Of a DNA stretch of 64,000 bases, positions 35,265 to 63,259 are shown one piece after another. Below the pieces are notes generated by a model that did no database searches, was not told the origin of the DNA, and worked only from the letters and a program-made list of their open reading frames with translations. A program made the position numbers and the translations under genes. Position 1 is the stretch's first letter; each line of letters begins with the position of its first letter. Source of the stretch: Monilinia fructicola (taxonomy: Eukaryota; Ascomycota; Leotiomycetes; Helotiales; Sclerotiniaceae); assembly GCA_008692225.1 (NCBI GenBank), contig VICG01000003.1:1357501-1421500 (forward strand), in the 5' to 3' direction.

Positions 35265-35390
35265 ATTTTTATAAGCTATTATAAGTTACTATAAACTCTT
35301 ATAAACTTCTATAAGCTCCTATACAATCCTATAAACTTTTGTAAACTTTTATAAACTTTTATAAACTCCTATAAACTTTTAAATTAATAA
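35265..35390 (+). repeat. Third TATAAACTTTT-type tandem repeat
   Basis: About 125 bases of the same degenerate word, for example repeated CTATAAACTC and TTTTATAAACT units, lying downstream of the helicase relic and in direct orientation to the arrays upstream of it. Confidence 0.75.
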
Positions 35391-35540
35391 ATATAAATGT
35401 TAATTAAATAAGCAAAGCAAAAGCAAACGGATGAAAAAAAGCAATAATACTTTAACTCTGTATTATTCCATTAATATTATTGATTTTGTTTATGAAAGTA
35501 TAACAACTTTTGTATTATTTTATAAACTCCTATAACTTTT

Positions 35541-35598
35541 TCGAATAAAAGCTCTTTCAAATAAAAGCTCTTTCGAATAAAAGCTTTTTCAAATAAAG
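35541..35598. repeat. 16-bp tandem repeat (TCGAATAAAAGCTCTT)
   Basis: Three full copies and a partial fourth of a 16-base unit, alternating TCGAATAAAAGCTCTT and TCAAATAAAAGCTCTT. The G/A alternation at one CpG/TpG-type site fits RIP-style C-to-T change on one copy. Confidence 0.88.
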
Positions 35599-38500: not shown

Positions 38501-39479
38501 GAGAATAATTTGATAATTTAATAGAATGATAAAGTTATATATAAATTGTTTTAGTTTTAAAAGTGGAAGCTTTAAGCAAAGAATTAATATAGTTGTTGTT
38601 AGATTTTTTATACTTTCAATATAGTTTAAACGTTTATTTTTTTTAATCTTTTTGAAATTAAAATTGTTATATACTATTATTATTTGTAAATAATTGCTTT
38701 AAATTTTGATTTCTTTTTTAATTATAATAATAATATCTTTTATTTTATTATTATAATGATTATAATTATTGTATATTCCAAATTTAAAAAACATTTGAAT
38801 ATAACAATACTTTATTTTATAGTTAAGTAAATAATAGTTAAAAAGATTATAAAAGTAATTCGATTTATGTTTATTATAAGTATAAAATATTATACTGGTA
38901 ATTATAAAGATTCTTTAAGCTTGGGTTTTTGTATTTAGTATATTAAAATAACTTTTATAATGAGTATACTTATTAATAACAAATTATATAATAATAGAAT
39001 ATTAAATAGAAGCTTTAACTTAAATAGTTTTATTAATATAAGAGAAATTAATATTATAAAGTTTATTTGATAGAATATTAAAATTAAAAATCTAGAATAT
39101 TAATTAAATATTAAATGTGTTAAATTCCTTTTTTAATATAGTTATAAATTAAGTAATTAAAAATTCTTTTTTTAATATATTAGAAACTTATTCTTTTTTT
39201 AAAACCTTTTGGAACTTTATTTTTTGAAGTGTAAAATTGAAATACTTTTTAATATATATTTTATTAAAAAGCCATTTTGTAATAAATTTCTTAAATAATA
39301 AACTTTTATTCTTTATTATGTTAATAATATATTAAAATTTAGTTTTATATACTTTAAATATAAAAGATTAGGTATTAAAGATATTAATAAATTGAATAAA
39401 GAGATTAGATGATATTTGTAAAAGAGAATTTAATAGTAATATTGTATTATTCGTTATAAAATTTATTATATAAAGAAAA

Positions 39480-39650
39480 ATAATAGAGATTGTTAAAAGG
39501 TATTAAGAGTTGTTAGAATGTAAAAAAAGCTTATAGTAGCTATTAGAAAATCGCAGTAATTCGCAGAAGTTTATAATAATTAATAGGATTTGATAAGAGT
39601 TTATAAGAGTCTATAAGAGTTTGCAGGATATTACAGGATATTGATATTGC
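39480..39650 (-). repeat. Inverted copy of the TATAAACTTTT-type tandem repeat
   Basis: Read on the minus strand this gives CTTATAGACTCTTATAAACTC and related words, the same repeat as at 35265-35390 but in opposite orientation, near the right edge of the AT island. Confidence 0.65.
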
Positions 39651-39896
39651 TCTATATTTAATAATATTTAATATAACATTTTGATAATAGAAATATGAAA
39701 CTTTATAAAATTATTATAATTTAATATATTATTATATAGATACAAAATCGATTTAATTAATATTATTAAATGTAAGTTATTTAATAATATAATTATTTTT
39801 TTTATATCTCGTTATGATTTGGTATATATACAGTCTTGAATAGCTTTTATCAAAGGAATTTAGTTCTTCACTAAAAAAGCAACCAAATAATTTCAG

Positions 39897-40018
39897 ACCC
39901 TCGTGGAGATTAACGTGTTCCTCGCTCTGATTGGCCTAATTTATAATAAATTAGTCAATGCGTATTTATTATTATAAATTTATAATAAATTGCTAAAACG
40001 TTAAAACTCCACGAGGGT
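39897..40018. mobile_element. 122-bp MITE at the right edge of the AT island
   Basis: The left end ACCCTCGTGGAG (39897-39908) and right end CTCCACGAGGGT (40007-40018) are perfect 12-base inverted repeats. The match continues imperfectly to ACGT on each side (about 20 bases in total). The centre is AT-rich with internal AATTTATAATAAATT palindromes. Size and structure suggest a miniature inverted-repeat element. I cannot assign a superfamily, and the target duplication is not obvious. Confidence 0.8.
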
Positions 40019-41632
40019 ATGAAAATTGAGATAATCCGGAGCGATGAAACTTCACCCCGTGTGTATGGGCGTGTCAGCTGATCTCTAAGTACCTAGCCTT
40101 GCTCTCTTGCTTCTCTCCCCGTGGATTTATCTGTTCCCCGCCGGCCAATATTTCAAGGCTTGGTGTAAGCATCCTGTAGCTTGTTTATGCCCGGAAGTAA
40201 GGTTATCGATCCGTGAAATTTAGATAGAATGTGTGTGGATGTTGGAGGGTTTCAATGACTAGTACTTGAGCGTAGAGCCAAACTTTGATGTACAATTGCC
40301 GTCGGCCCGTAGGTGTTGTTGACTATGATCCTGAGGGGAAGACTCTGAGGGTTGAGGGTGAGATGCAGAAATCTTTGTCGTTGAGCTCTTGGTTTTAATG
40401 GGAATGGGGAGATAAATTATGGCGAACTGAGTCACGAAACGAGAATATGATGCCATACGATAGTGTTGGCAGGAGTGATGATCAACCCTGCGTTCTATTT
40501 CTTAAGCCAACAGCCTCGTCCCCTTCTTTTCCATACTGATTGCAACTTGACCGTTTTTCCGCCCTCGCAGCACCAAATTAATTTCTAGTAGCCTCGATTC
40601 CCACGATGGTGCAGACGCCCTGCAGTGACCAGGTAGGAGAGGGTTTGTGCGAGGTTTATATGGGGATATCGACAGCGCAGGAGAGGAGAAATCTATTCAT
40701 CACCATAATGAAAGGAATCAGATGAGGTTAGGTGTTGAAAGGTGTTTGATTGATTGGAGGGATTTCAACCTGATTGAGTTTACTTCGATCTTACCCTGTA
40801 ACCTCTTCCTTTGGCAGCGTCGCGGGTCTGTTTTGTTTCGAAAGATACCTAATTGATCTTCATTCTCGCTATTCGTCGAGGAAAATTAAAGGGGTTCTCT
40901 CGATTAGATAGCTATCTAACCTCTTGATGCGAGCCTCTTCGGCTCATCGAGTTGCAAAGGGACTTTCATGTCGATGATGAGCCATGACGGCTTTGAAGGT
41001 CGGTGGTCACGACAGGGCTTGATCCCGTAGCATTTATTTGGCGCTATCATTGTGTTCTGGCCATAGGAGTAGAATTGCACCTTCAAGATAGATATTCAGT
41101 CGATGAGATCAAACCTTGGGAAACACATGACTTCCGTGCCGGGGGCTCTCCATCTCCGGCTGTAGGTGACAATACACCAGCTCTGTAGCAAGTTGATCTG
41201 GAAATTGGCGCCGCGGATTAGCTGTTATCCCAAGGGCATATATCGAAGTGGAATATTTCAGATTGGCAACGCCATCAATCTAATAACGTGGCCATCCTTG
41301 AGCCCGGTCCTTGACCACTATTTGACGATGATTTAACGGAGAGAAATAAGAGCATGTTGAAACCGTCATCATGTGCATTTCTCAAAAAGATCTTGTTGCA
41401 GTAGCCCTGGAGATTGATGCAATATTCTCCAAGCTAGGCATAGTCACAGATGTTGGCCAATAGGACACGACCCATAATCATGGGGTAATCCCCACTAATC
41501 TTCTTATTTTACCCCTCTCGAATTCTCCTATATTTGGCAGAATCCATGCATGGTTGTACAGAATTCTCTTATCATGCCGTCATACTGCTACGATTTGGCC
41601 GTCACTCGAGACCTTTTCCAGATCCCCAAATC
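40019..41632. other. Intergenic region between the AT island and the SDR gene
   Basis: Composition is normal again. A minus-strand stretch at 40259-40456 (65 codons, Ser/Pro/Gln-rich) is the only mildly coding-like reading and I cannot support it. The last 100 bases are the SDR leader. Confidence 0.5.
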
Positions 41633-43424: not shown

Positions 43425-43700
43425 ATGAAGTGGCACAAAGGCAAAGTCATAACGGGCGAAATTTATGAGCCGGAGCTGGAAAGCGTACCGCGCAAAGATC
43501 GAGCCCGAATAAGACGAGAGAAGCGAGAGGAGGAAATGTTGTTCGTTTCGTACGGTATCAAAACCACAAGGGTGAAACATACCGAGATACATGAGATGAC
43601 GGGGTTGGATGAGAGGTATGGAAGATTTCTATGTGTGAAACCGAGCCCATTGAGGAAATGCTGGACTTTCGTTGAAGAGGGAGGAGCACGTGATGGGTGA
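43425..43700 (+). CDS. Array gene 1: small basic protein with LRxCWT C-terminus
   Basis: Not a family I recognise. Single exon, 91 aa, rich in Lys/Arg (RKDRARIRREKREEE near residue 24-38). The C-terminal half reads LFVSYGIKTTRVKHT, then GRFLCVKPSPLRKCWTF near residue 65-82. This part aligns with the C-terminus of the gene at 57341-58364: GIRTNGVRPT and GQYVSFSSPLRHCWTY, with 33 versus 32 residues between the two blocks. There is no signal peptide or membrane segment. The start is the first ATG after a CACAAA context. It is the shortest member of the array, close to a bare copy of the shared C-terminal module. Confidence 0.6.
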   Translation: MKWHKGKVITGEIYEPELESVPRKDRARIRREKREEEMLFVSYGIKTTRVKHTEIHEMTGLDERYGRFLCVKPSPLRKCWTFVEEGGARDG

Positions 43701-45068
43701 GAAAGGCCGAGAGGATTTGTTGTGGATTTGGATATGGCGGGTTTCATGATAGGAGATCGATAAAAGCTGCGCGGCTGCAGGATGAGAACATACATCTATT
43801 GGCAATGCCATGTACGAGCAGTCTGAGAGATGAACGTTGCGCAATTCGAGAAGCATCGCAAATTCATCTTTGTCTCTAGATCTTGCACTTTCACGTGATA
43901 TACTTGACATTTGGCGCCGGGGAGACTCATGAAACGCTATGTTCTCAGCAGTGATGGGGCGTTCAAGTCCCTTCTGTATGCATGTGGCTATTATGCATCA
44001 TTCGATGATTTCAAGATATTTTGGGTGACGTACAGAGACTCGCATACGCTTTGTCGCTGAATAAATTTACCATGTGTTCCCCATTTCCATTGTCTTTGTG
44101 TGTTTTTTTAGCTGTTTCGAAGGTGTAAGATAGCCTGGGATGAAATAGCAGTTCAATAGTCATAGAAAAGCTTATTGTACTCGCGTTGCACTCTTGGGAG
44201 GGAAGCTTCATGGACCACGTGAAATATGCCTGGTTATCCAAAAGTTTCTCAATCGCATATGGCCCGAATGATCCATCCAAAAATCTCATGTTGTTTGCTA
44301 ATATATTCTTGGCGCGCTGCGTGATATTGTCATCTAATGGCAATGACTTATTAGCACCCTGAATCTATTGAAATTAAAACTCCTCTATGTCAAGCCAAAC
44401 CTTGAACTTACGAATGGAGCTGTGAACCCGGTTGGAGAATTTTAGACAGGTATGCTACTTATCTGCCGGGTTTGACTCATAATCGCACTTTCCTTAGTTG
44501 ATTGAACCCTTCAATTTCACTCTTGAGACCGACTCACTAAGTGCAGTTCGGTGGCGACTACAAAATTAAGAACCTTCTTCGCGTATTTTGAGTCAGCGTT
44601 GGCGAGGTTTTTAGTACCGAAAGTGTCATGTAGTTCATTGATTTCAGGTACTGGAAGGTATGTTTACGAACACGATATCTAGCCTTCTAGCATAGTTTCT
44701 AGACTCTAGACCGGAGCGAAGGAACTCAATTTTGAGGACGGACATGCATTATCGAGCTTTTTAGTGCCTGAGTAAGTCTAGATACATGCATCCTAGTTTA
44801 GAGACCTTCAAGTATCATGAGCTAATGAATCTTTGGCGATGATTAGAATAACTCAAGGAGAATGATGAATGCCATTCTTGTTTAGTCATATTGTATATAA
44901 GGCAGGTTAAAGACGTGAAAGATGTGATGTTATAACCTCAAATTACTCTCATTCAACTCTTTTATTATCAATATTTGGTCAAACGGCTCGATCGATAAAA
45001 TTTGCATGGTTAAATTAGGGCTTTATTAACCCAGCATCATTTACCGAGTGCAGGCATCCAGGGGAGAA
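43701..45068. other. Spacer with a possible minus-strand gene fragment
   Basis: Between array genes 1 and 2. Most is non-coding, but the minus strand carries the fragmentary reading described separately at 44011-44690. Confidence 0.4.
44011..44690 (-). pseudogene. Possible unidentified minus-strand gene or gene fragment
   Basis: The minus strand reads GANKSLPLDDNITQRAKN... then NMRFLDGSFGPYAIEKLL and SMKLPSQECN down to a stop at 44011. Upstream segments on the same strand (PEINELHDTFGTKNLANAD, KYAKKVLNFVVATELHL) also look coding, with plausible intron borders between (acceptor TTCAATAG before 44350, donor GTAAGT upstream of it). I could not find a convincing start codon or a family, and one linking segment contains a stop. 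It could be a real spliced gene, a partial copy or a decaying one. It is the only minus-strand coding signal inside the plus-strand array. Confidence 0.3.
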
Positions 45069-45587
45069 ATGTCTTTCGATTGGGCAGACAATACCTTCGA
45101 GGCTGTAAGCTCATAATTTTTCAATCTAAATTCCCTTCGTAGTTGTTTCTCGTTTTTCTATTCAAAGTCACGCAGGAACATTTTTATCATGTTAGAAAGG
45201 TCACGCTGACAAAAGCTACTACAGATAGCCAATGGGGAGCTACCAGACTTTCCAACTTGGGACTTTAATACCAATTTTATTCTTGGTATGACGGAGGCTC
45301 AAATTAGTATTAGTGATATGATGGAACGCGGGACGTGCTTATTCAGATGCTTGTTCTATAAAAGATATGGCACTCAGAGTAAGGGCATGGAGACAACGGC
45401 GGGAACATCTGTGAGTTCAGTGAGTCAACAGTCAACAGCATGAATACTGATAGAGTACCAGAACAGAGATATTGATATGGAAAATGTAGAGGAAGAACCA
45501 GAGGAAAACGAGTTAAGATTGTGGCCAGGTGGTGGAAAGTGGAGGGTAAAGAAGAGGAGCCCTTTGAGAGTGATGACGTTGGCTTAG
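45069..45587 (+). CDS. Array gene 2: small protein with SPLR-type C-terminus
   Basis: Unrecognised. Three exons are read: 45069-45104, 45225-45410 and 45456-45587, with introns of 120 bases (branch CTGAC) and 45 bases, giving 117 aa in frame. It starts MSFDWADNTF, then GELPDFPTWDF, a middle with RGTCLFRCLFYKRYG, and an acidic stretch ENVEEEPEENE. It ends GGGKWRVKKRSPLRVMTLA. The last block matches the shared C-terminal module (G-x-W-x-x-V-K-x-S-P-L-R), but the Cys-Trp pair is replaced by Val-Met. The acidic, aromatic N-terminus faintly resembles the gene at 61579 (MSFFEDTWGLPEFF). Splice choices are mine and the last acceptor is the least certain. Confidence 0.5.
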
Positions 45588-46393
45588 AAAGTCTTAAGAC
45601 TGTGAGGACTTAATTTGGTGATGATGATGGGAGAATGAGCCATGGTTCGGAAAGAAGAGATGGAATGAATGGGATGGATATATGGGAGCGATATGAGGTA
45701 GCAAGATATGTCACTTTACCTTCAATGACACTACTCTGCTTAGCCTTACTTGAGTAGATTTTACAAAGGATCATTTGATAGAATTGTGCCTATGTTTACC
45801 ATATGAATCTTTCAGAGAAACGTTAATCAATCGTTTTTGACAGATAGTGCCACCATAATGTTTAAAATTTATGTTATTGAAATCTCAAATTCCTTACATA
45901 CCACAATACAACTAGTTACGTTGAAAGTAAAATAGGCCTTTCGGTATCTGCTTCATACAAAACACTGCAGATTAAATACATATGGCTGGTACGAGTAAAG
46001 TCATGATAGTATAAGCTGGTAAAGATCTGAAGTTCAAATAGTACAGCTGCAGACCATAAGATATCAGATGTTGTTACGCCAACCATAACTTTTATCTTCC
46101 AATACCATTCAAGGGTCTAGTTGCGTGAATCAAAACATCTAATTCCTGGAAGTTATTCACCTGCATATATTCGGCTTCTTCACAAAATTAGACACTCTAC
46201 TGTAGGCCTAGATTAAAGTACTTCGCGAGACGGATTTCAAAGCCTCCATCTTTCTTCTACAAACAACTTGATACAACTACAATTAATTACTTATAAGGAC
46301 ATTCAGAGATATATATCAAAATAGATACCTCTATATCTAACCCAGCTTTCTATCTCCTGATACCCCTAATTCACATTCAGAAGTCATCCCACC
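45588..46393. other. Intergenic region
   Basis: About 800 bases without a coding signal; the last 100 are a pyrimidine-rich leader before array gene 3. Confidence 0.5.
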
Positions 46394-47456
46394 ATGTCTT
46401 TAGCGAACCTGTTACCACCTTTGACCAAGTCGTGGGCAGACGAAGTCAATGACGAAGTCGAACAGCAGCTATTAGAAACTGCTCTCTCTACCATATCTAC
46501 CAGCTACCCTATTGATACATCCAGACTAGATCACAAGCTGAATATGGAAGACCTCGAAGTACTCCCACCTGACTTCATAGATTACGAGGTAAGAAAAACT
46601 TTCAGCATGTATTGATGCATCTTTGACCATTTTCTTACAGGCTCTGGAATTATCGGACGAAGAATATACCTTCAAATCCTACGCCTACGCTTCGGACGCT
46701 GAGAAGACCTCGAAAAATGAACGCGCTGCTGTCCTCTCGTCCGACACCAATATGTTAGCCAAATACATGACAATGGATATCCCCAGAACATTGCCGTACA
46801 GTATACCGGGACCCAATGCTTGTGAGTTCTTCAATAACAACTTTGAGGACAAGAAGTGTAAGCGCGTATCGAGCGATAAAAGTGAAGAGCACGAGGAGCA
46901 ATCCACGGCAGCTGCTGAATACAGCTTGGAAACTTCGGAGGAACCTACTGAAGACCTCCCAGATTATCTGGAAAGTTTCAGTTCATATGTCGAGTCGCCT
47001 CAAACCACTCCAGATCTTGGCAGCTCGTTCTTCTCAGACCACGAATTTGATTATAGCGCGGAGAGTGATGAGGACGAAGAGAGACCTTGGATTGAGAACC
47101 CATTGATGGGAAAGGATGTAGTCGCTATTCAAGAGTCATTTGCAGCCGTTAAATCCAGCGAATATGATTCACATCCTCCGAAGAATGTTCACGGTGGTTG
47201 GGTAAGCAAGTTCCGTTGTTTGAATTCATACCCAGTCCCAGGCTCCAATTCTCATGTCAGATTTTGTATTCTTTCCGCTCAGTAACAAGTCTTTCCCATC
47301 TACTATCCTGCCCAAGCTCCTCTAGATGACTTTCTTCAATGATGATTACTGACATTTGTGGCTTTATAGAAACCTCGGAAATGGAAGTGGGTACCATCAA
47401 ATCTAAGACGATGTCAGACAGTTGTTCGACATGAAGGATTCAAGTACCAAACGTAG
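46394..47456 (+). CDS. Array gene 3: acidic protein ending in the LRRC module
   Basis: Unrecognised. Exons 46394-46588, 46641-47201 and 47370-47456 with introns of 52 and 168 bases give 280 aa. The N-terminus MSLANLLPPLTKSWADEV is followed by long acidic Ser/Glu-rich stretches (for example EEHEEQSTAAAEYSLETSEE and SAESDEDEERPW), likely disordered. The small last exon, which begins after a clear GTAAGC donor and CTGAC...TATAG acceptor, encodes RKWKWVPSNLRRCQTVV and ends KYQT. The shared module is thus carried by its own exon, which supports it being a unit. No signal peptide, membrane segment or known domain. Confidence 0.6.
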
Positions 47457-48077
47457 GATCTAATTGATATATCATGAACACTGAATGGCTTTATATTTGG
47501 GTCGATTAAATCGCGCAGTAGCATCTCGGGATTGAACTCAGTTATATGAAATTGATCAGGTCAAGGTGTTATAAAGGTGTCAATTTCCCAGTTTTTTTCG
47601 AGCCAGGAAATTGCAAGACGGGACAAATCAATATCATATTAATAATAAGGCGAAGATTTTGATGAGAAGAAATCATAACATAAGAATCTTCAATACAATT
47701 TATATTCAGGAAATATATGCTTTTAATCATTCCTTCTCTCTTTGGTTTGTTAAGTGATCGATCTTCTTCCTTCCCGCTCAATGGATCTTCAGAGACCCGT
47801 GGACTGTCATAATTTCCTATGGCGGTGACCTCTATTCACTTGAGATCTTGAATGGAATAACAACTGAACGCCAGTATAAAACTTGGATTTTATTTCACCA
47901 CATATCCAACCCTATCGTACGACATCTTGGTATTCAAACCAACCACTTTTGTGATTTCTTGAATCATTTCATCACAACCACCTCACCCAACCACAGGAAC
48001 ACAAAATAAATCCAAAAAACAAACGGGTAAGCAGTCTGGAATCCATCATATCGGAGCCACAAGGAGATTATATCAAG
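47457..48077. other. Intergenic region
   Basis: About 620 AT-leaning bases with no gene; the final 100 are the leader of array gene 4. Confidence 0.5.
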
Positions 48078-49078
48078 ATGTTATCACCTCAAGTATGGCG
48101 TACTATACGATGGCAAACCGCAATAAATACAGACTACGATGGCGCAGTCCTTGTTGGAGGTCTGGAGAATGAACTTCGGCATTTTGGCGACCCTGATGAA
48201 GAACATGATTTCTGGACAGATCCAACACCATCAAGTTCCTGTCCTGTAAGTATGACTGTTTCAAGATATCTTATAGTTGCCGTCCCTGTGCGTGGTCGCA
48301 AGCTAACCAAAATCTCAATGAATAGTATACACATGAGGGCACAAGAGCTATTGCGACAGCCCAGAAAAAGGAAGAGCAACAAAATTTAAGGGCTTCTTGT
48401 AAATCTTCAACCTTGGGTATCTACAACTACAAGCCCGATACGAGCTCCAAGAGTCCTGACGGGATTGTCGTAGAAGATGAAGGAAAGAAAAATGAAGAGG
48501 AAGAGGACGGCTACAAAATCGAAACAGACGGGGAGCCACTCGAGTTTCATGATGAATGGTTTGAACAAGTCTTGCTAGATAATGAAGAATGTGAGGTAGG
48601 ATTCGATGATTGTGCACAATGTGGAGGGATCTCTAAAGGAATAATTGTCGACGATAACGAAAAGATCAAGAACTGTGAGCACAATACCGAGGATATAGAG
48701 GCAGTATCGACAAGATCCTCCGATACTCGCACAGATCAAGAGGACGAGAACAGTGATGCTGACTTCGAAGAAAGCTTCATCTTAATGTTCAATGAGGAAC
48801 TCGATGTCAAAGGCGATACCGAGGAAACGAAAAATAAGATTTCGTCGACTCAATCCTCTAAAGACAGTTGCTCCTGTCGATGTGGTGAATCTGAATTCAT
48901 CAAGATCGATGACACAGATACAATCAATGGCCTGAATGGAGTTGCGGCGACACCATGTCCTGCTCGGGCTGTTATCGCAGCCCAGCCGGGACTCTGGCGA
49001 GCTATGAGTGCTTGCCGGCCACTTGAAAGAGCACGTCGTCCGCATATTGTAATGCCAGGAAGTTGGCAAGCGGTATGA
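48078..49078 (+). CDS. Array gene 4: acidic Cys-containing protein, divergent C-terminus
   Basis: Unrecognised. Two exons, 48078-48245 and 48326-49078, with an 80-base intron (GTAAGT, branch CTAAC), give 306 aa. After MLSPQVWRTIRWQT the protein is strongly acidic (EEEEDGYKIE, DQEDENSDADFEES). Cysteine pairs occur at DDCAQCGG and DSCSCRCG, which could bind metal, though I see no classical finger. The C-terminus GLWRAMSACRPLERARRP keeps a G-x-W-R...P-L-x-R pattern like the module of its neighbours, but without CWT, so it is a possible, divergent member. No targeting signal. Confidence 0.58.
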
Positions 49079-50611
49079 GCTCATGAGTGATTGTGTGAAC
49101 ATCAGGAAGTTGGTTCAGATTGAAGACAGGTACCTGAGAAGAAAAAACGGCTCGCTATTATACGTCTACATCTTCTTTCTATGGAACTCGAGAAGGCTGT
49201 GTGCTCCTCAGTCCTTGAGCCTGTACGTATATAATGCACCGTGCCACGAAAGATACTCTTCCACAAGGTGTATAGAGGAATTATATCCAAATCATATCTG
49301 CGATTTGAATTCAAACAGGAGGCATTCAAGATTTGAGGTGAAAAGTGATTCTTATGGTTTGGAAAATCACGTTCTTGATGCTTATTTGGCCCATTGATCT
49401 TTCTGTAAGTTGAGAACTTGGGGGCGGTTCCCCGTCTGGCTGTGAGATAGAACTCTCGTGACGGTACAGCAACCACCAAGCAATTCAAACCTTATTCAGA
49501 GTACTTTTTGACATGCTTAGCATGCAATTGCAATGACCAAATCATTTAGCAAAATCGTTTCTGATCAAATCTAGTGTGTGAGTCGAGTCATGTCGGTCAT
49601 CTTACTTTGGCTATAGACCATCGCTGAACTGCGACTATGGAAAAAAACTGCGCTAAATTCCATGTTTATCGGATCTGATAGCGTACTTCTGACAGCTCTG
49701 GTAGAAGGCGGTCTCAAATATCAAAATCAATAGTGGGAGGTAAGAAATGGGGATGGGGGCAAAAACACATGTGAGAGATTATCACAACATTGTGATTCCA
49801 GGATTCTCCATGATCAATGTCTTGGTCTCTTTAGCTTACTTACAAGTTCTTCAGAATGAAAAGTCTCAAGTGAAAGGATTATTATGACATGGAAAACTCC
49901 CGCTTATCTACGAATAGGTATAGAGTGATTTGGGAGAAGTAGAAAAATTGGACGAACAAGTTCGCACGACTTCATACCAGAGTGAAGGTATCAGGTACGT
50001 GCCTCTACCACATGCAGTGTAGGAAAAGACTCTCAAGGGTATGTTAGACATGGTTTTAAACGTTTTAGAGGCATTTACATACATACTGTCATAGACTGCA
50101 TCCTAAGACTCAGCTGACTAGCTCCCAGTTCAGGAGATTGAGTGCCCCACGCAAGCGAGTGTCCCGCTAAAAAATACCGGATCGAACTTTTCTTGATTGA
50201 AAGAATTATAGAAGGAAAGTTCCCTTTCCACGACTGGAAACTAGTCAGCTCAGTCTTCGAATACCGACTATTGGTATACCCAATACTGGCAATTAGTTCA
50301 TGAACCAGACCAAAGTCATGACTCAATGCCGACTATTAGGTCATGACTTCGTCTAAAGACATGACCCAATTCCGACGATCGGTATATGAATTAGTACCAA
50401 AGACATGACTAGGCCTTCTACTACAAATCGAAGATTCTATTTAATTGAGATACCCCCCAAGTTCACATCAATGTTTTGAAATATCCATATCATTCACAAA
50501 CATTGAATCATCTCCAAAATACTCTACGATCATCTCAAGCATATTTTCTACTTTTGTACAACAAAATCTACTCCCTCGACAACAAATCTTGTACACATAC
50601 CTACTACAACA
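49079..50611. other. Intergenic region with a repeated GTCATGAC-type block
   Basis: About 1.5 kb without a supported gene. A block of imperfect repeats at 50250-50420 lies upstream of array gene 5 and is described separately. Elsewhere I see nothing. Confidence 0.5.
50250..50420. repeat. Imperfect ~45-50 bp repeats carrying TCATGAC
   Basis: Three to four imperfect units share AAAGACATGACCCAATTCCG-type sequence followed by a CCGACTATTGG-like word. The best core is the perfect 10-base palindrome AGTCATGACT at 50314-50323, overlapping an AP-1-like TGACTCA. The block ends about 190 bases before the ATG of array gene 5, so it could be a clustered operator; this is inference. Confidence 0.7.
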
Positions 50612-50935
50612 ATGCCATCTAAGATGGCCGAGTCCTTACCAATGGACAAAGCCTCCATTCTAGAGAAAGCCGAGTCTACGAACAAGATATACGGTTACGT
50701 GTTTGAAATGAAACTCCCAAAAGATTTTGAGGCACGCGAGAAGAGAATTGTTGATTTCGAAGATGCCGTACTTCGCAGAAAGATTTATCAGATACTCGCA
50801 AATGATACTTCCAAGGCATTCCAGATACCAACACGCAAAGTCACTCCAGAGATGATTAAAGCACGAGCTTTTGGCTTCTCTGTCCTTGATTGTGTTGGAA
50901 ATACTAGTCAGTTGGACACAGAGCAAAGCGGATGA
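50612..50935 (+). CDS. Array gene 5: small helical protein, no shared module
   Basis: Unrecognised, 107 aa, single exon. It is Lys/Glu-rich and mostly helical in appearance (DFEAREKRIVDFEDAVLRRK, then IPTRKVTPEMIKARAFGF), with little low complexity. It lacks the LRxCW module seen in most neighbours; either a downstream exon was missed or this gene is unrelated. MPSKMAESLP is the first ATG after a CAACAATG context, which favours this start. The regulatory-looking repeats lie just upstream. Confidence 0.5.
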   Translation: MPSKMAESLPMDKASILEKAESTNKIYGYVFEMKLPKDFEAREKRIVDFEDAVLRRKIYQILANDTSKAFQIPTRKVTPEMIKARAFGFSVLDCVGNTSQLDTEQSG

Positions 50936-51691
50936 AAAAATGGTGAACCATCAGATTCGTAAGGGGAGAAGTCATTGTCGCCAAAAGCTTCCGTAAGGAT
51001 TCTTGAATGACAATATCACGTTGGGAAAAATGAGAGGTGGAAATAAGGAAGGAGGCAATGTGCGGTCAGATGGATGGATTATTTCAATCTATGGGACGAT
51101 TGGGACGGCTAGATCAAGAAATTTTCGGGAATCTGAGATCGAAGATTCTATTTCTGGTGTACATATATTAGCCTGAACAATGATGCTAATTGATGTAACT
51201 TCCATCGAGAAATAATCTGAGATGTATATTCATTTTACCTGGTGATGAAAATTGTGAACCCGCAACTACTTAGAATTCAGCATGACAAACAAGACATAGT
51301 GATATCTGGGAATTTCAAGACAGATAGGAGTCAATAAGTGACAGTCATGCCTATTCATTGAATATTTCAGTAACCTTGAATGTTAGTAGATGATAATCTC
51401 CATATAGATTTAGATCATATGCCTATAATTGGGAACTTGCTCAAAAAGCCCTGCATGATATTACGAAACTTGCATTTTACTACTGTATTATCGCATTTTG
51501 ACGTAAAACTGACATCTAACTTTGAGGCTAAAGATACCTAGTAGTCAATAGTCTCCAAATCTCCCTTAGAAAATTTAGACTCGTATGCCTCAAACTTAAT
51601 CTATTCATACATGACACACACATTAATTGAGCAGTAGTTAGATCACGAGACCTCTGGGAAAGTATTTAAATTGAGCTTGCAGCAGTTTCTC
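50936..51691. other. Intergenic region
   Basis: About 750 bases without visible gene or repeat. Confidence 0.5.
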
Positions 51692-52078
51692 ATGGCAGAT
51701 CAGGCGAACCTCCTGAAGTATTCTTCCAACTCAAAATCAAGGCTGAAAGAAATCAACTCGCTCACACCCAAGGCTATCATAGCAACCGCAAATATGCCAC
51801 CTCAACGAAAATCTCCAACAACTTCAACATCGAGCAAGACCGGCAGGCCCCAGCTTTCGGCTTCCCGAAGAGCTAGAACACCTCTCCCATCCTCCCCTGT
51901 CCCCAAACGCTTCGAACATGGAACTTACTCATATCAAGTCTGGATGTGGCACAAGTCAAATCTTAGAAGAAGGGGAATCACAGCCGATATTCGTGAGCCT
52001 ACTGCCGCAGAAGAGACATTGAAACATCGGTGCGTGAGATTGAGTTGCCTTCGATGGTCACAAAGCTATAGTGATTAG
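51692..52078 (+). CDS. Array gene 6: basic Ser/Pro/Thr-rich protein with SNLRRR motif
   Basis: Unrecognised, up to 128 aa from the ATG at 51692; a second ATG at 51794 (MPPQRKSPTT) is an alternative start. A basic Ser/Thr/Pro-rich stretch (SSKTGRPQLSASRRARTPLP) leads to YQVWMWHKSNLRRRGIT, the shared module with Arg in place of Cys. After LKHR a possible donor GTGCGT at 52030 and acceptor at 52118 would replace the last 16 residues and end at 52149; I cannot decide between the two ends. Unlike most neighbours it is basic rather than acidic. Confidence 0.5.
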   Translation: MADQANLLKYSSNSKSRLKEINSLTPKAIIATANMPPQRKSPTTSTSSKTGRPQLSASRRARTPLPSSPVPKRFEHGTYSYQVWMWHKSNLRRRGITADIREPTAAEETLKHRCVRLSCLRWSQSYSD

Positions 52079-52149
52079 GAGTAATTCGGATACCTCTGGC
52101 ACAGTCTTGATATGATAGCGTTGCGGCAATGTCATACTGTAAAGGATAA

Positions 52150-52903
52150 CCTGGGAGAGGATCTTCTTGGAAAAAAACTACCTTTGGAATATCTGCGTTG
52201 GAAATGGATTGTTGGAGAAAGCAATAGAGGGTGGACAGAGTAGGGATTTGTGTTCAAGTCTCCTATTCTGGTGTGATATAGTTTGGACTTGACAGATTGG
52301 GTTTGCCAAAAGAGGCAATAGCATGTAGCAGATATCATCACATCACATCAATCCATTGCTTCTTCCCATTGCCAAAGCTCTCGTTGTTCGTTTGAATACC
52401 ATCTGCCATGATACTCTGTTCTTTATAATGTGAAGAATTTAATGACTAAAAAAGTGCTGCCGTCAATTCCTCCACTTAATCTAGACAATCAATTACTTTT
52501 CATACATGGCTTCATGAAAGCCAAACAATGGAAGCAATTTTACTTTTAATGGAGGGAATTTCACCTAATGTGAGTCAGAGATGGGACATCGGACGAGATG
52601 GTTTACTTGAAAATATTCACTTCGACGAAAAGAGATTTTTTGGGACAAAACGCGTCTTGCAGTTCTTTCAAGATTCTCGACCCAACCTTTTCAATTTTGC
52701 CACCAACTAACTGAGATATCAAAAAACACATTGGATATTATTGTGGCTACAAGGTATGAAGAATATATAAAATGAATATGGCCTTTAGATCAGAATATTG
52801 ACTGGTTTGATAGACATTACTCCATAGATCTGAGCCGAAAACCGAAGATCGAAAATCCACAACCTCACATCCTCTTCGAATTTATCCACGCCTTTCAACC
52901 ATA
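52150..52903. other. Intergenic region
   Basis: About 750 bases. A 60-codon open stretch at 52528-52710 has no support. The leader of array gene 7 occupies the end. Confidence 0.5.
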
Positions 52904-53749
52904 ATGGAAACTTCTGTTCCAGACCTAGATCCGTCCCTAATCGACCCAGCACTCATCGACTCATCACTCAATGCTATAACAGATGATGCAAAGCTAGGTG
53001 AAAACATAGTTGAAGGACAAGTCTTTGATAATAATGAGGACAGCGCGGTCTCTGAGCGTGAAGAGCAAGCTGGGTACCACATTTCAGATGAAAGAAACAA
53101 CGATATGATTGAGGTGGACTTGGTACGCAGCTTGGGAATTAGTCTGATGGGCGACAATGACGCTTCTGGTAGCAATAACACCAATGTGTCTGTACCAAAC
53201 AGAAACGAGGAATATTCTGAGCAGGAGTATTGTGAGTCCATCTCAGATGACGAATACATTTCAGCATCTGAGTATAGTGACGAAGAAGATTTGGCAAACA
53301 TTGAAGAGTCATTGCGACAAGGCGAAGAAGCACGATTAGCTGATCAATTGGCATTCAGCGGAACACCCCTGAATATTCGAATTCCAACTTCACCATCACC
53401 ACCTTCGTACTCGCCACCCCCAACACCAGTTTTAAGACTAGCTCCATTGTTTCCACCTGGTGTCAACATACCAGCAGCTGGCTTCTTTGAAGATCCAGTG
53501 CGGTTCGCCACCCGAATTAATGCTCGTAAGGTTCGAATGCATGAGGCGCGAATTACAATCGGTGAGGACCGGCTTAGACAGCTTCCAGGGTCATGGTGGT
53601 GCCGATGCCCCAAAGTTCCGACATCTCTTAGGAGATGTTGGACTCCATATGATATGTTTGATGCATATTTGGAGAATACTTTGGTTGCCATCCACGACCA
53701 CGGAGCGAAGGAAGCAGAGCTGAAGAAAGGTGCTGAGGTCATCGAATGA
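52904..53749 (+). CDS. Array gene 7: acidic protein with SLRRCWT C-terminus
   Basis: Unrecognised, 281 aa, single exon. The N-terminal 150 residues are acidic (METSVPDLDPSLIDPALIDS..., ASEYSDEEDLANIEES), followed by a Pro-rich segment PTSPSPPSYSPPPTP and a basic stretch INARKVRMHEARITIGED. The module then reads WWCRCPKVPTSLRRCWTPYD, with a helical tail DAYLENTLVAIHDHG. Compared with array genes 1 and 9 the I-x-x-x-x-V-R block sits a few residues further from LRRCWT (39 rather than 32-33). Three cysteines cluster in the module. No signal peptide. Acidic plus Pro-rich plus basic C-terminus suggests a nuclear or chromatin-linked role at most, which is inference. Confidence 0.65.
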   Translation: METSVPDLDPSLIDPALIDSSLNAITDDAKLGENIVEGQVFDNNEDSAVSEREEQAGYHISDERNNDMIEVDLVRSLGISLMGDNDASGSNNTNVSVPNRNEEYSEQEYCESISDDEYISASEYSDEEDLANIEESLRQGEEARLADQLAFSGTPLNIRIPTSPSPPSYSPPPTPVLRLAPLFPPGVNIPAAGFFEDPVRFATRINARKVRMHEARITIGEDRLRQLPGSWWCRCPKVPTSLRRCWTPYDMFDAYLENTLVAIHDHGAKEAELKKGAEVIE

Positions 53750-55613
53750 TTGGATGTTCACAACGATAAAATGATCACGCATTACAAAGAGTAGACATAA
53801 TTGTTGTTCTCGGCTCCCGCATGTATCACGAGGTCATTTTTGTAATAGTCAAAATTAGTCTAATGGATCCACTTTTTCTCGCTTATTTTAAACTTCTCCC
53901 CTGATTCGAACATCGCAAGGTCTCATGAAGCTACTATCAATCTAATTACTAGCAAAACTGCGTGGAATGACCTATACCAACAGAGGAAATACTCACTATT
54001 GAACTTGGGACAAAGGTTTCTGTCCATAATGTTATCAGGGCTAAAAGTCATTTGGCTCCGGCATTTGGCTAAACTACGATTCATCACGTCCTAGGCTAGA
54101 TAAATCCACTGGCTTAGTGTTAGAATAAAGATGACGCATCTCCAGAAAAGGGTTCGAACAGATTTATGCAAGCTGCGTTTAATGCAAGAATACGGAAGAG
54201 AATTGCTCTGCGAAATACTCAAATACAGCTTGTGATACCATCATGCACGTGCGAGATCACCTTCAATTGTCAATAGATCGCCAATAAACCTTTTTCAGTC
54301 AAGGAAAACCTCAAGATATATCAGACTCTGTGCACTGAATGATCTTCATGTCGTTTTTGTGATGTGTTTCGCGGTGTTGATCGACTTAGTTTATGATATC
54401 TAATAACATTGTTTTCCTGCTTTGCCCTTCTATGTCTTAGACTATCATTTCTAACGTCGTATAAACTAGTCTATTCCTCCACATACCGGTATATTCACAA
54501 TGCATCTGTAGATATCCTCATTATTATTTTAAGGTTTCAATGCATAGACTTGTAGATGACTTGTTAGCTTCATTTTGGTTAGTATACACCAGTTCATATG
54601 GAAATGCAGGGTATCAATGATTTCCAAGATCCTTTATACTCCGGAGGATACTATAATGTTTCACCGATAGATGATTTACTTCTCCGTAAGATGGCACAAT
54701 GGGCCGTGTAATATGGTGTATGTACAGAATTGAAAGATTTCGTCATGATGATAGGAATATGTTCTCAGGAATCAGATGGATTTCCGCAGAAGATATGATC
54801 CCAAGAAGTATCGTGATATAAAGCATTTTATTTAGAACAGCTCCCAACATGCGTGTACCTTGAGTGAAAATCAAGTTCCTCGGACCGCTGATACGTTTTC
54901 ATCGCGTCCACGCCACAGGAGTCAATATGGTTGGGTCTCAAAACAAGAACACCTCGCTCAAGTAGTCAAGGCTGATACTAAAGATGAAAGCCCAATTTTA
55001 AGTGATATCGGCACTGGGTGGTTCCCCAGAGTCGAAATCTCGATTTAATAATTCAAACAGGAGATATAATCAGTTTCCGAGATATGTACAGAGTTGAGCA
55101 TTGTCATCGTCCAGATCTCCGTAACGACTAGATCATTGATGGAATTTTTCAATCGAACTTTTCACAGGTGATAGAAGGATGGCTTTTGGGATGAACCAAT
55201 TCGCAGAAGATTTGTAGTTTTAAATGCTTATATTAGATGTTTAGAATTTACTTCTCAGCACGCGAAGGATGATTTAGTTATGATCCATGAGATATTGTAT
55301 CCATGTAGTGGTGAAGAATTCTTAAGCATGCACCTTCCTTCTTTGAACAATCGAGAATATAGTATTTTGCAAGCTCCTCTAAGTTGTTGTCGATTTTCTT
55401 TTGGAAAGAGCGAGGATATCTCTTGCATATTTGTATGCTAGATGGGATGATGTGCCTAGCGAAACTCCTCAGTCAAGAACATCACTCACATCATCGACTC
55501 ATACCAGCTTTTGGAATATAAAGTATATTATACTTTCATTTATATCCCTCTTTTGAGCCATTTCGAGTCGTCCCCAAAAGTAAATAGAGATTCCGAAGCA
55601 ATCGCAGGCCAAA
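53750..55613. other. Intergenic region, possible decayed member
   Basis: The longest gap in the array (about 1.9 kb). A 62-codon frame at 54860-55048 (RHRSQYGWVSKQEHLAQVV) has mild coding flavour and a G-W-V segment faintly like the shared module, but no start, splice or full motif. I regard it as unproven. Confidence 0.4.
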
Positions 55614-56767
55614 ATGACACTTCATCATCTCACTCACTCTCAGCGTGATGCTCCAGAGGCACATATAGTATCAAATCACCAAGAACGAAGTCCACGACGA
55701 ACTCTAAGCTGGAGACGCCGAGATAAGAATAACAACCAGCTACCTGCTCATAGAGTTATGACCATGCTATCAAGTGGAAATGTTCCAAATGACGGGAATA
55801 TAAATTTCGAAGACAATCAAAAATCTCAGCAAGCTCACAATAGCAGCATAATGCGTTCGAATAGCCACCATGGCACGATGACTGGCTGCAATCCAAACGA
55901 CAGCTCCAAGACATACGATCACTCGATTTCAAACAATAGACGGTCTTTCACCGGCCATATCGCTACCAGTAGCTCAACTGTTCTGGCCACAATGTTATCA
56001 TTTACCAAGCCTAACTTCACGATGCGAAGAAATAACCAAGTAGGAAAAGTCTTTTCTCACTATCATAAAACTAAAGCTAATGTTTATAGAACCTGGCTTG
56101 TAATCCCGTTACAACTCAGCCCAGAAACTCTGTACGCAGGGAAAGAAGCTTAAGTCCTGGTGCGGTGGTTGATAGACAAGAAGTCAAAGGAGTTACTGAA
56201 GGAAACGAGGTCTCCCAAGAAACTAATAACCCAGTACCGATATGCTTAAGCAAAGTAAACAGTCAGATTCAGGGAGGGGGGACGGTTACAATCAGGGGAA
56301 GCGATCTTACTGGGATGTCATCTGTGGCATTTCATAATAAACCCAAGCGTGATATCGAGTTTGAAAGGTACATAAAAAGGATTCCCCTTAAGAGTTGGAT
56401 CAGTCGTTTCAATGATATGCAGAGAAAGCCCAAGTCTGCCCGAAGTAAGAAATGCACAAGGAAGCTTCCAATTTCTGGGCGGTTATTTGCATCAAGAAAG
56501 TCTGAATACATGAAACTAGGACTGGAGCTCTCATACGAAGAAGTTAAAACAGCCGACTGGAAACTTCAAGCTTCTACATCTCCAAACTTCAATACTGGAA
56601 GGGCTAGAAAGGCTAAACCGGGGAACTCTAATCTACGGTATTGCTTGACATATACCAATCAAGCTTCGAATGATACTCTTGAGAGTACCTGCGACTGGAC
56701 TTATGATAGAGTGAGACGTTGGCTGTTTTTTGGGGATTACAGCACGCTATGCAACAGTTTTGAGTAG
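55614..56767 (+). CDS. Array gene 8: basic protein with SNLRYCLTY C-terminus
   Basis: Unrecognised, 357 aa from two exons, 55614-56039 and 56120-56767. The 80-base intron is GTAGGA...CTCAG, and splicing joins NNQ to PRNSVRRE and removes an in-frame stop. The N-terminal half is Ser/Asn/His-rich and probably disordered; the C-terminal half is basic with RFNDMQRKPKSARSKKCTRK and GLELSYEEVKTADWKLQ. The module reads KPGNSNLRYCLTYTN, with Leu in place of Trp, followed by a Trp-rich extension (CDWTYDRVRRWLFFGD). The donor is weak (GTAGGA), so an unspliced pair of shorter frames is the alternative. No targeting signal. Confidence 0.55.
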
Positions 56768-57340
56768 TGCACTTGATATTCTAGCATTCCTGTTATCTTG
56801 TTTGATAGTCAGCATCTCTGATTACAGCAAGTATCTGAGTTTCAGTTCAATATATCTAGACCAATAAACCAGCGAGTAATAGTTATGAACTTTCAAACTG
56901 TTCATGGTGGTATTTAACCATCATTCTATGATTCATTTTGTCTTTTCACTGTTTTGGTGAACTTGAAACGACGTATACATTTGAGTTACGGCACAGTTTA
57001 TTATTCTATTCAAAATCCAGACTCTGTCATCTTGTGCAAAGCATCACTGTCATAAAAAGGTTTATTGAAGATGGGCTTTCCGGAGCCGTACTAGACGCAG
57101 AAATACTATATAATTAACCTGATCGCCCCAGTGGTTAAACATCTTCTATACACCACTGTTTATCCATGAAAACTAATTACAACACGCTTTGAATACTCCG
57201 TTGATTGTCATAACTGAGAGATTTATCTATTCTTGAAAACTGATAGAAGTGAAGGGACTCACAACATTGTCTTGGCTTCTCTTGTGATTCTCTGGATATA
57301 TAAAAGGAATATTGCTTCTATATCGCTACATTTGTGCAAT
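56768..57340. other. Intergenic region
   Basis: About 570 AT-leaning bases with no visible feature beyond the leader of array gene 9. Confidence 0.5.
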
Positions 57341-58364
57341 ATGCCCACAAAAGCTATAAATGAAGAATATGGGACACAGAGAGAACTTGCAAGTTCTAAT
57401 CAACTTATTGAAACGGATGAGATTGTAATGAGCAGAGGACAGAGTCTATCGGATGTTTCTCATTCGGTAGGAAAAACAACATCTCCCTCAAAAATTGAAC
57501 AGTTGAAGACATATACTGATTGATTTCAATTAGATTGACAGACCGATATCACCGAGAAACTTCCTTAGCTCATCACCATTGTCACAGATGACCCCAGAAG
57601 GCTCACTGGATGTATCAGAGCTACCAGTATTATCAGACTCAACGACTCAATCATACTTATCTCCACAACCAAGTAGTCTCAGAGTAGGAGATCTAGAGGA
57701 ACGATGTAGATTTGACTTCGAAATGCTCCGAAATGCACTCGAGGAAACTCTCGATACTACTCGGGGAGATGGCAAGGAAAATGCTGATGATAACAGTGGT
57801 ACAATAGAAGAATTGGGGGCCAATGAAGAAGACTCTTTGCTAAAAATCACATTCTTGGAGGTCTCGGAGGAAGAACATGGCAATGTCGAAGAAAATGTGA
57901 GCGATGAGGATTACCTCTATCATGATGAAACACCCCAAAGAGAGGTGCCTGGCCATCCAAATCCCTGGACAGCGGAACAAGCAGAAGAGCCCCTTTTCAA
58001 AGAAAATCTCTTTGAAAATCCTCTACAAGCTCTTGAAGATCAAGAGAATGGTCTTGATATCCGACTGGCTGAGCAATCTACACCGGCTACCCCAAAAATT
58101 ACACCTTGTCTATTATCCAGAACCTGGCTCACCCGTTTCCTCGCCAGAAAACCCAAAGGCAGGCGCCGTATGCCCAATAGACCTGGAAAATTCGTCAGCC
58201 CTCCTGGTAGTCAGCTATTGTCTCTGATTGTGCATGGGATCAGAACAAATGGAGTACGTCCAACAAGAAGAGATATTGAACTTCAACGTCATCCAGCTTT
58301 GGGTCAATACGTGTCGTTTTCTAGTCCTCTTAGGCACTGTTGGACGTACACATCATCCAAATGA
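57341..58364 (+). CDS. Array gene 9: acidic protein with SPLRHCWT C-terminus
   Basis: Unrecognised, 318 aa. Exon 1 is 57341-57466 (MPTKAINEEYGTQREL), then a 67-base intron (GTAGGA...ACTGAT...TTAG), and exon 2 is 57534-58364. The middle is acidic (EELGANEEDSLLK, LEVSEEEHGNVEENVSDED) with a basic stretch LTRFLARKPKGRRRMPNRP near residue 230. The C-terminus LIVHGIRTNGVRPT ... GQYVSFSSPLRHCWTYTSSK aligns with array gene 1 (GIKTTRVKHT ... GRFLCVKPSPLRKCWTF) with nearly equal spacing. This is the clearest evidence of common ancestry in the array. Confidence 0.65.
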
Positions 58365-59305
58365 AGACTTTGATCTGTGGTTTTGGTTGGATGTAGTCAG
58401 AGACTATGAGACGACATGTTGTTTTATGTGTGTAGAGTATTTGGTGGCATCTCAACACATGGGTGGATAGTAATGTCATCGGTCACTTCAAGCGTAAAGC
58501 TGCAATTTAGTATACTAGACGAGGTCTTTCAGATCGTATGATAGGTCTTCCTCTCTGTTTCATGTATCTATGGAATTTAGGAGGAAATTCAAAATACTAT
58601 TTGCTTGATTAAGAACGCCTAATGTGACGTTTATTTGATCTCATCTTCCTCCAACGCCCTCACGGTGTGACCTCGAACTATTGAAGAGCTGTTTTACAGA
58701 GTGCGAGAGCATAGGAAAGAGCATATGTATAAACTCTACCAGTTCATATAGTGACATATAGACCTCAGGCTAAAACCTAATGAACACACCCGTGGACCAT
58801 CTTATTCGTTTGTCTTGGGATATATGTAAAGCTTGAGTTGTGTCTAGCTGTTGGAGATGGTAACCTATTTTTAGATATCTAGGCATCATACAATCAATTA
58901 TAAATTGGATTCAATGTAGTACGATTAGGTGAAATTGAAATCTTGTGTTTCTCAGAGATTAGCAATAATTTTGCCAAAAAATTAACTTGAGATCATCAAG
59001 AAGTTGAACATTCATGTTATCTCAACCAAGTTATGGTGAAGGTGAATGAATATAGGTATAGATTGATGGAGCAGTTCTGCTTTTATCCGAGGCTATCATG
59101 TGAATGCTTGTAAATAGGTTCAGCTTTCAATATATCATTCACTTTTCGATCTGATCAATCGCTTCTCTGCACAATATAGCTTTAAAAGCGTCTTTTCCGT
59201 TCATCCTTCCGTCTATTAATATTCCAACAGAACGCTCCAAATTATACAGAATTTGGAAAACCGACTTACAACACAACAAGAACCATCAAATTAAGAGAAA
59301 TATCA
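58365..59305. other. Intergenic region
   Basis: About 940 bases with no gene; a pyrimidine-rich leader precedes the ATG at 59306. Confidence 0.5.
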
Positions 59306-59882
59306 ATGTCTACGTACGCAAATCGCAACTCATATGTTGGCCCAGAAGATCAAAGAAATATCGTGAGTTTATCTAACCTCGTGTGCTTCTAGTCAACATG
59401 AATCCAAGATCGAAATTAGCTAATTTCTTGAAAGTACAAGGCCGGAATTGACATATATGAGCCTGTAACTGAGATCTCGGGGACAATTACGCCCTTGACT
59501 GTACTTTCACCTGAAGTAATAGAGATTAGGATGAGAGATGGAATCCAGAAATCAAGAAGGAACACCATAACCATGAAAAACAATCATGGGGAGGATATGG
59601 AGATGAGTTTGGCGTTTGGCATCATGAGAGATGGGCCACCATCTACCGATGATGAGGAATCAGAAGAGGAAGGCGCGCATATGGCTATGACAAAGAAAAG
59701 TCATTTTGGCAACCCGATTCTCTCAGATCATGGGTAGCAACTTTCTCAGCAAGAGAGTTGGTGGTTCAGAGAAGGAGGAAGTAAGACCGGAGGCTATTGC
59801 TGTTCAGATCAATGAAGCAGTTGTGCAAAAGAAATCGAAATCTCGCCGTCGTAAGCGTGATGGCGTAGGCAAATCTCGCTGA
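59306..59882 (+). CDS. Array gene 10: small acidic-then-basic protein, frameshifted
   Basis: Unrecognised. Exon 1 is 59306-59362 (MSTYANRNSYVGPEDQRNI), followed by a 78-base intron and exon 2 from 59441. The reading GIDIYEPVTEISGTITPLTV ... PPSTDDEESEEEGAHMAM runs to an apparent stop at 59735. The next frame continues smoothly as MGSNFLSKRVGGSEKEEVRP and a strongly basic end KKSKSRRRKRDGVGKSR to a stop at 59880-59882. Dropping one base near 59713-59725 joins them into 165 aa. The basic tail looks like a nuclear localisation signal. No LRxCW module is present. Confidence 0.5.
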
Positions 59883-61578: not shown

Positions 61579-63259
61579 ATGTCGTTCTTTGAAGACACCT
61601 GGGGACTACCCGAATTCTTTGATCCACAAGAAGAATTAGAATTCTTAGATCTACCAGATGAAGATTTTTTTGATATTCCAGCAGATAACAATCAAGAATT
61701 GGACGCTCTCTTGACAACCAACAGTGAGGATCAGTCTATTAACAATGAAAGCCTCTCGGAGGATTTAGAAGTCAACAGGGCGAATGTACTAGGAACCAGA
61801 GAAACTTTGAGAGTTGACCCAGATGCAATGGTCTACGAGACACATACAGAGATAGAGAAACTTGAAACAGAGTCAGCTGGGCCAAATACAGGCAGCCATT
61901 CAAATATACAAGTTGAAACACAAGTTCAAGATAGTCCGGTGAGAGCTGTGAATAGCCAGTCCCTTCAGGTACTAATAACTTTCGTCCTACAACGAATTAA
62001 CAATGAGCTGACTGTTCAAGCAAACACCATCCATTTTGGAACAGCCCCAGACTGTTATATCTCCATCTGCATTGCGGATTGCACAAGATCGGTCATTATC
62101 GGGAGCTCCTATCTCATCCCACAGCTCAAACTCCAACACTATGCTACCCCCCGCTACTCCCAAGATTGGACAGAGAGAAAAGTCAACTATCGACAAAATA
62201 ATCGAAGAACACGACAGAAAAACTGCTGAAAGACTAGAAGCTAGGAAAGCTCATGCACTTCGCTTGGGCTACAAAGGCATTAAGAAAAATGCAGGGGGCA
62301 GAAATGTAAACAGGTCTTCCGGAGGTCAAGATGAGTATATAGCAAATCCTCAGAACAGATCTATGTCTAGACACCCTGGGGTGCCGGAACCAATTGCAGC
62401 TAGGCAAACTTACCATTCCCATCTTCAAGGATCAACTCCGAGCTCAGGAATTTTTGGAAAACAACAATTTTCACCAAATGGGCCAAATGCAACAATCTCC
62501 TGCAGCTCTGGGCCCTTTCCAGCAAATGGGTCAAAACAGAATGATTCCTCATCGACAAAACAACAGAAATATAAGAGAGGTATCACATCAGCCCCAGTAA
62601 GTACTGCAAACCCTCTTAGCCAGCATAATTATCAGCACTCCCAATCGAATATGAACCCTTTCCAGCAAAGACCCAACAAGGTGACAACCCATCTGTGGAT
62701 AGAGTTTTCGCCCCAAATATTAACAGACAAGCGTCAGGCTATGGCAACCATGCACCCGTCTCTCATATTCAAAGCTTTAATTCGAGACAACTCATGCAGC
62801 CTCGACTACCAAATCACTCTTCCCAGCGGATGGGCCAGGCAAGGCACGGTTCTGGACCCTCTGCTCTCAATCATAGTGCAGGCTATGAAGAGCCGCATGT
62901 GCCGCTATTCCCCGAGAGAAACTCATGGGAACCACCAATAACCAACATCATACGTGGTGGGGCCAATAATCGGCGCCAAATCTCAGTCAGTCAAATGCAG
63001 CAGTTTGAGGCGCAGCAGCAAGCAAATGCAGGCATATCCCCACAAGCTTTCACTCACCAATCCTGCGGCGCCTAACCAATTCAATGATTGGTATACGACT
63101 CCGATTGATCCCTTTTCTCCGACATCCTTTAGACATGAAGCGAATAGTGACCAATTTTCACAGTCAATGATGGCCAACCCGTTTGCTCCTCCTCCCGGAC
63201 AAACTTCTTTCACACACACTCCAAAGGATAGGGACGGATTTGATATTCCATTCAAGTGA
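61579..63259 (+). CDS. Array gene 11: acidic N-terminus, Gln/Asn/Pro-rich C-terminus
   Basis: Unrecognised, roughly 500 aa. Exon 1 starts MSFFEDTWGLPEFFDPQEEL and is acidic and aromatic. An intron (GTACTA...CAAG, about 61970-62030) joins VNSQSLQ to QTPSILEQPQTVISP. A helical charged segment IDKIIEEHDRKTAERLEAR follows (a short coiled coil), then a low-complexity Gln/Asn/Ser/Pro/Met region (QMGQMQQSPAALGPFQQMG, FEAQQQANAGISPQAFTH), ending DRDGFDIPFK. The C-terminal half jumps frame several times: near 62468-62471, in an unresolved stretch at about 62585-62700, and near 63055. Acidic plus Q-rich composition resembles a transcription co-activator or prion-like protein (inference). No LRxCW module. 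Confidence 0.5.

Follow-up and report, generated by a model that had tools for sequence, protein, structure and literature searches.

Lineage-specific tandem arrays of orphan genes are known from filamentous fungi, and the paralogues in such arrays can usually be aligned across much of the protein. Two other kinds of described system bear comparison, namely, RXLR-type secreted effector families, in which diverged proteins are joined by a short Leu-Arg motif, and regulators with acidic activation domains. A stretch of 64,000 nucleotides from contig C3 of Monilinia fructicola (positions 1357501-1421500; hereafter the window, whose coordinates are used below together with the gene letters A-J and X) was found to hold a group of genes that resembles each of these systems in part. 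Like the orphan arrays, these genes are same-strand neighbours with strong divergence, no Pfam family and an adjoining block affected by repeat-induced point mutation (RIP); unlike in those arrays, only a module of 8-12 residues, S[PN]LRxC[WLQ]T, can be aligned. A short Leu-Arg motif joining diverged proteins recalls the RXLR effectors, but the array proteins have no signal-peptide-like N terminus, and the motif lies towards the C-terminal end. In genes C, D and H and in the neighbouring gene J, aromatic residues and leucine occur within an acidic body, which recalls the acidic regulators, whereas the array has no recognised DNA-binding domain and gene F lacks windows of this kind. Overall, the group looks like a real, undescribed and fast-diverging family.

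The initial annotation, made from the letters of the window alone, had proposed seven genes that end in one motif and share almost nothing else, plus an eighth possible member. The strings quoted there were present on the plus strand in open frames. Gapless motif discovery with leave-one-out scoring was applied to the predicted proteins of 43.4-63 kb, where 11 genes were modelled on the plus strand only; gene J was cut to 362 residues. The top de novo motif in these proteins was S[PN]LRxC[WLQ]T. Its score was 49.5 nats (width 8) and 56.1 nats (width 12) for all eleven proteins, and 46.8 nats (width 8) and 49.0 nats (width 12) for the eight claimed genes. None of 382 shuffled sets (96, 86, 100 and 100 across four settings) reached the observed score, the best of them giving 32.2 nats, and in an earlier run none of 80 shuffled sets was as good. 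The comparison with shuffled sequences, which had been suggested together with the annotation, was thus passed by a wide interval.

Additionally, a five-sequence profile minus one sequence was scanned over 5,779 six-frame open reading frames (ORFs) of 184 kb. The held-out ORFs 43425, 46394 and 57588 (genes A, C and H) ranked first among the non-training ORFs (E = 1.4e-4, 7e-4 and 1.2e-3, respectively), and the held-out 52904 and 56315 (genes F and G) ranked second, with one chance ORF above each (E = 0.09 and 0.44). Genes B, E and D (45069, 51692 and 48078) were not among the 16 matches listed. The motif is not a product of chance in five genes, A, C, F, G and H, which are its secure carriers; genes B and E are weak members, and gene D, the proposed eighth member, is a possible degenerate one.

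Among the secure carriers, gene A (43425..43700) has a single exon, encodes 91 amino acids and carries SPLRKCWT at 43644-43667; a minus-strand ORF of 110 amino acids overlaps it. Gene C (46394..47456; 280 amino acids) has predicted exons at 46394-46588, 46641-47201 and 47370-47456, and its SNLRRCQT at 47397 lies inside the last of these. The separate exon claimed for this module is supported insofar as a GT-AG model fits the predicted intron 47202-47369. Gene F (52904..53749) encodes 281 amino acids, with TSLRRCWT at 53621 in a basic module. Gene G (56315..56767) encodes 150 amino acids counted from the first ATG and has SNLRYCLT at 56627. This motif had been assigned to a gene starting at 55614; it was found in the ORF 56315..56767, and the upstream ORF 55614-56153 is in a different frame, its link to gene G being unproved. 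Gene H (57341..58364) has either predicted exons at 57341-57466 and 57534-58364 or a single ORF from 57588, with SPLRHCWT at 58323.

The remaining members are less clear. Gene B (45069..45587) has an uncertain model with introns and the tail SPLRVMT, and gene E (51692..52078; 128 amino acids; WMWHKSNLRRRGIT) is nearest to gene C, with which it has WxWxxSNLRR in common; this gives gene E some extra support. For both B and E, the discovery run picked sites other than those quoted in the initial annotation. Gene D (48078..49078; predicted exons 48078-48245 and 48326-49078; 306 amino acids) has a basic tail with PLERARR and no motif, and it was the best anchored match to gene H upstream of the motif position (rank 4 of 2001; Bonferroni-corrected value 0.056). 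The distance from the motif to the C end was 1-12 residues in genes A, B, C, D and H and 32-38 residues in genes E, F and G, so that "end in" is accurate for five of the genes only. All 11 modelled genes lie on the plus strand, the only strand modelled; the minus strand of 43.4-63 kb has four ORFs of 100 amino acids or more, each of which overlaps plus-strand genes.

The distribution of the motif was studied by pattern scans of the whole genome (44,028,109 bases), each with a control count. The pattern S[PN]LRxC[WL]T had five matches, three of them in the array (genes A, G and H), against a control of 2; the two outside matches fell on C7, where the open piece has 18 codons, and on C14, where the match is out of frame with the long ORF that contains it. 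S.LR.CWT had 10 matches, three in the array (A, F and H), against a control of 8. All seven outside matches were read and rejected as further carriers, being in open pieces of 12-96 codons, with none that combines S[PN]LR and a long frame. When the fifth residue of S[PN]LR.C.T was restricted, three of 18 matches were in the array and 15 outside, with a control of 27; the one outside match inspected, SPLRRCFT on C9, was in a 57-codon open piece and was rejected. W.W..S[PN]LR had 35 matches, two of them in the array, against a control of 21. Of its 33 outside matches, 28 were inspected and rejected, six having a stop inside the match and none running on as LRxC.T. The motif is nearly private to the array in this genome, although patterns miss variants and this does not amount to proof. 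Protein queries against the genome (A, C exon 2, D exon 2, E, F, G, H and X, leaving out B, I, J and ORF 55614-56153) returned self-matches and a significant second place for gene F alone; gene H had one weaker match and gene E two (E from 0.02 to 0.4), and gene X matched nothing but itself at E up to 10.

The second place of gene F is on scaffold 2 (C2, about 2530300; 1511-1649 of the extracted locus L005) and covers 153 bases at 73% identity (E = 1.2e-18) with one in-frame stop. At the DNA level, the fragment matches gene F over 139 bases at 82% identity, from approximately 17 residues before the motif to approximately 22 after it, and it corresponds to the module of gene F and to no other part of that gene. 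In 32 gap-free codons, seven differences were synonymous and six non-synonymous, giving a ratio of non-synonymous to synonymous rates (dN/dS) of 0.20 (Fisher p = 0.009); the stretch was picked through local alignment, and the value is supportive rather than exact. This suggests that one or both copies were under protein-level constraint in the past, and it supports purifying selection, as opposed to positive selection, on the one measurable module. Elsewhere in L005, at about 1930-2060, a peptide (...YAELCRNPFI) was found that is similar to one at locus L011, 9067-9480; this pair suggests an interspersed repeat element.

No known family was recognised. Three Pfam scans of the predicted proteins gave nothing above the curated cut-off and only a few matches with E from 0.08 to 0.16, in agreement with the earlier statement that no described family has this signature; DUF7765, which came up for gene I, was set aside as noise, its 13 bits (E 0.08-0.14) falling well short of the cut-off of 27. 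These scans also returned no recognised DNA-binding domain. A search of the PDB by sequence with a profile of alignment A1 gave no match up to E 10, and Rfam gave none at the gathering score in 40-64 kb. In the titles and opening abstract lines of the literature on Monilinia and Sclerotiniaceae genomes and gene families, the family is undescribed, which is no proof of its absence from print, and no report was found in the literature on short-motif gene arrays of fungi.

The reading preferred here, plausible though short of probable, is that of a tandem family: old same-strand duplicates whose variable bodies sit on a conserved docking tail and act inside the cell. About eight such duplicates would have lost nearly all likeness except for the C-terminal module, their bodies having diverged fast after an old tandem duplication. 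Contact with one common partner may explain why the tail has been kept, the module serving as a short docking peptide or a basic contact. The acidic and probably disordered body would vary and carry the action specific to each member, for example, by recruiting or titrating chromatin or transcription factors, and the proteins would act inside the fungal cell. The absence of signal peptides that had been claimed was borne out by hydropathy alone: no hydrophobic N-terminal stretch was found, the largest 11-residue mean being 1.10, although the proteins analysed for 45069 and 56315 did not begin at a true start. An intracellular or nuclear site of action is compatible with the findings.

A number of results weigh against this reading. 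Outside the motif, the statement that almost nothing is shared was borne out, no pair of protein bodies being significantly alike upstream of the motif after correction. A G-I-[KR]-T block described upstream of the motif in two members did not hold up as a second signature: the anchored test of the A-H pair, one of 28 pairs, ranked only 94 of 2001, the best multi-sequence score was no better than that of shuffles, and the block emerges only when A and H are aligned over their full length, motif included (Bonferroni 0.026 over 55 pairs). Motif discovery did not bear out a tie of genes X and I to gene A that had been drawn by eye (N-terminal G.IYEP and PE.I..R..G), and this tie was dropped. At the DNA level, self-BLAST of the array gave no long matches, and all that it returned was one inverted repeat together with a short palindrome; the short repeats in the array are of 18-29 nucleotides. 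The best candidate for a family-wide promoter motif was equalled in 18 and 20 of 25 shuffles. A 29-nucleotide stretch opening with a TATA box precedes genes F and H (52763-52791 and 57296-57324, 83% alike) and is not family-wide. Because the upstream block, the promoter motif and the long DNA self-matches were all negative, common descent rests on the 8-12 residue motif and on position. Very few duplications are reported for Monilinia in a comparative paper (PMC8228255). An AlphaFold model from the alignment led by gene A had a mean confidence (predicted local distance difference test, pLDDT) of 56, without a confident fold. The scaffold 2 copy is now broken, with Arg replacing the motif Cys. 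Finally, the coding status of several members is doubtful. Gene A (codon score 0.030, with 0.047 in another frame) and gene G (0.017) are ambiguous, gene E (0.000, with 0.007 in another frame) has no coding bias, and the middle piece of gene B scores -0.057, while its last piece (45459-45584, 42 codons) scores 0.148. Codon bias is clear in C, D, X, F, H, I and J, with scores of 0.08-0.12 against a 95% quantile of 0.033 for spurious ORFs; therefore, the motif carriers with clear bias are C, F and H.

The doubtful coding status bears on one of the two main rivals, according to which the genes are old tandem duplicates in decay, with the motif as the last recognisable remnant and most members inactive. 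Weak or absent codon bias in A, E, G and part of B, eroded motifs in B, D and E, and the stop in the scaffold 2 copy would all be expected on this account, whereas genes C, D, F and H are long open frames with coding bias, and the dN/dS of the F module points to constraint; decay on this scale is considered fairly unlikely. It is also at odds with the retention of the motif despite differing codons. Across the five motifs, the invariant L, R, C and T are encoded by 3, 3, 2 and 3 different codons, respectively; the likeness is therefore at the peptide level and is not that of a recent DNA copy. The codons for the motif Ser mix the AGY and TCN classes, and gene F has a Thr codon, which would suit convergence, in which unrelated genes each gained one short linear motif docking to a single hub, without duplication. 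The lack of significant likeness outside the motif after correction would fit as well. However, five secure cases adjoining one another in 15 kb on one strand, with genome-wide scans at or near the control level elsewhere, are more easily explained by duplication, and convergence appears improbable.

The other main rival concerns function, the basic module being a nucleic-acid contact or a nuclear localisation signal and the proteins small regulators of transcription or chromatin with acidic activation segments. The 49-residue modules of C, D, F and H have net charges of +5, +3, +9 and +4, and the bodies before them -36, -38, -33 and -25, respectively. This polarity is confined to four of the eight members, genes A, E and G having no acidic body, and the description of the N-terminal parts as mostly acidic was thus overstated. 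Among 23 background ORFs with 300 codons or more, none had the same polarity and one had an equally acidic body, by a criterion set after the data had been seen. Activation-domain-like windows, acidic and rich in aromatic residues and leucine, occur in B, C, D, H and J and are lacking in A, E, F, G, I and X; they make up 5.0% of the windows in the cluster against 0.4% of those in the background, where 4 of 23 ORFs hold one. When the bodies were shuffled internally, the observed number of windows was matched in 37 of 200 shuffles for C, 37 of 200 for H, 152 of 200 for J and 5 of 200 for D. Composition accounts for the windows in C, H and J, only D stands out, and gene F has none against an average of 7 in its shuffles; these results count against the preferred reading as well. 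The Pfam scans also showed no known DNA-binding domain, and a role as such regulators is rather doubtful. An effector-like role in the plant following unconventional export would suit the divergence of the proteins, the genome of a plant pathogen and the adjoining RIP block, but the N termini are not signal-peptide-like by hydropathy, and this alternative is judged very unlikely.

Three further genes of the modelled region carry no motif. Gene X (50612..50935; 107 amino acids) lies within the array and has a clear coding bias. Before it, an imperfect inverted repeat was found at 50091-50271, with 39-nucleotide arms of 79% identity, followed by several CCGACTATTGGT-like words until approximately 50380. 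Gene I (59306..59737) has predicted exons at 59306-59362 and 59441-59737 and encodes 117 amino acids. Gene J (61579..62941; predicted intron 61969-62020) has an acidic, aromatic-rich N terminus resembling an activation domain and is probably a neighbour rather than a member. Of the flanking RIP heterochromatin that had been proposed, an AT-rich block was confirmed on the left side at 31200..40100, with a GC content of 13-23% per kb and a RIP signature (indices of 1.08 and 0.89); the array itself has ordinary indices (0.70 and 1.32 at 43-60 kb), similar to those of 1-31 kb. The ORF to the left of the array, 41891-42707, is presumably short-chain dehydrogenase-like, and those to the right, beyond gene J, have the look of conserved enzymes and are taken to be lipase-like, AAA ATPase-like and aldolase-like. 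At 8834-10510, an acidic ORF is followed by a second ORF, which we take to resemble an Sds3/Dep1-type histone deacetylase subunit.

In a wider and decidedly unlikely form of the proposal, the array would be an intracellular system private to the species or genus, in which numerous acidic proteins that look unrelated connect to a single conserved partner by way of the common tail module and diverge fast because of internal conflict, such as allorecognition or conflict with mycoviruses or transposons. Should the tail prove to be a docking module common to these proteins, a single pull-down could give the partner for the entire array and provide a handle on the roles of its orphan proteins. Neighbouring genes may diverge until a short constrained peptide alone betrays their kinship, and such cases are missed by similarity-based annotation.

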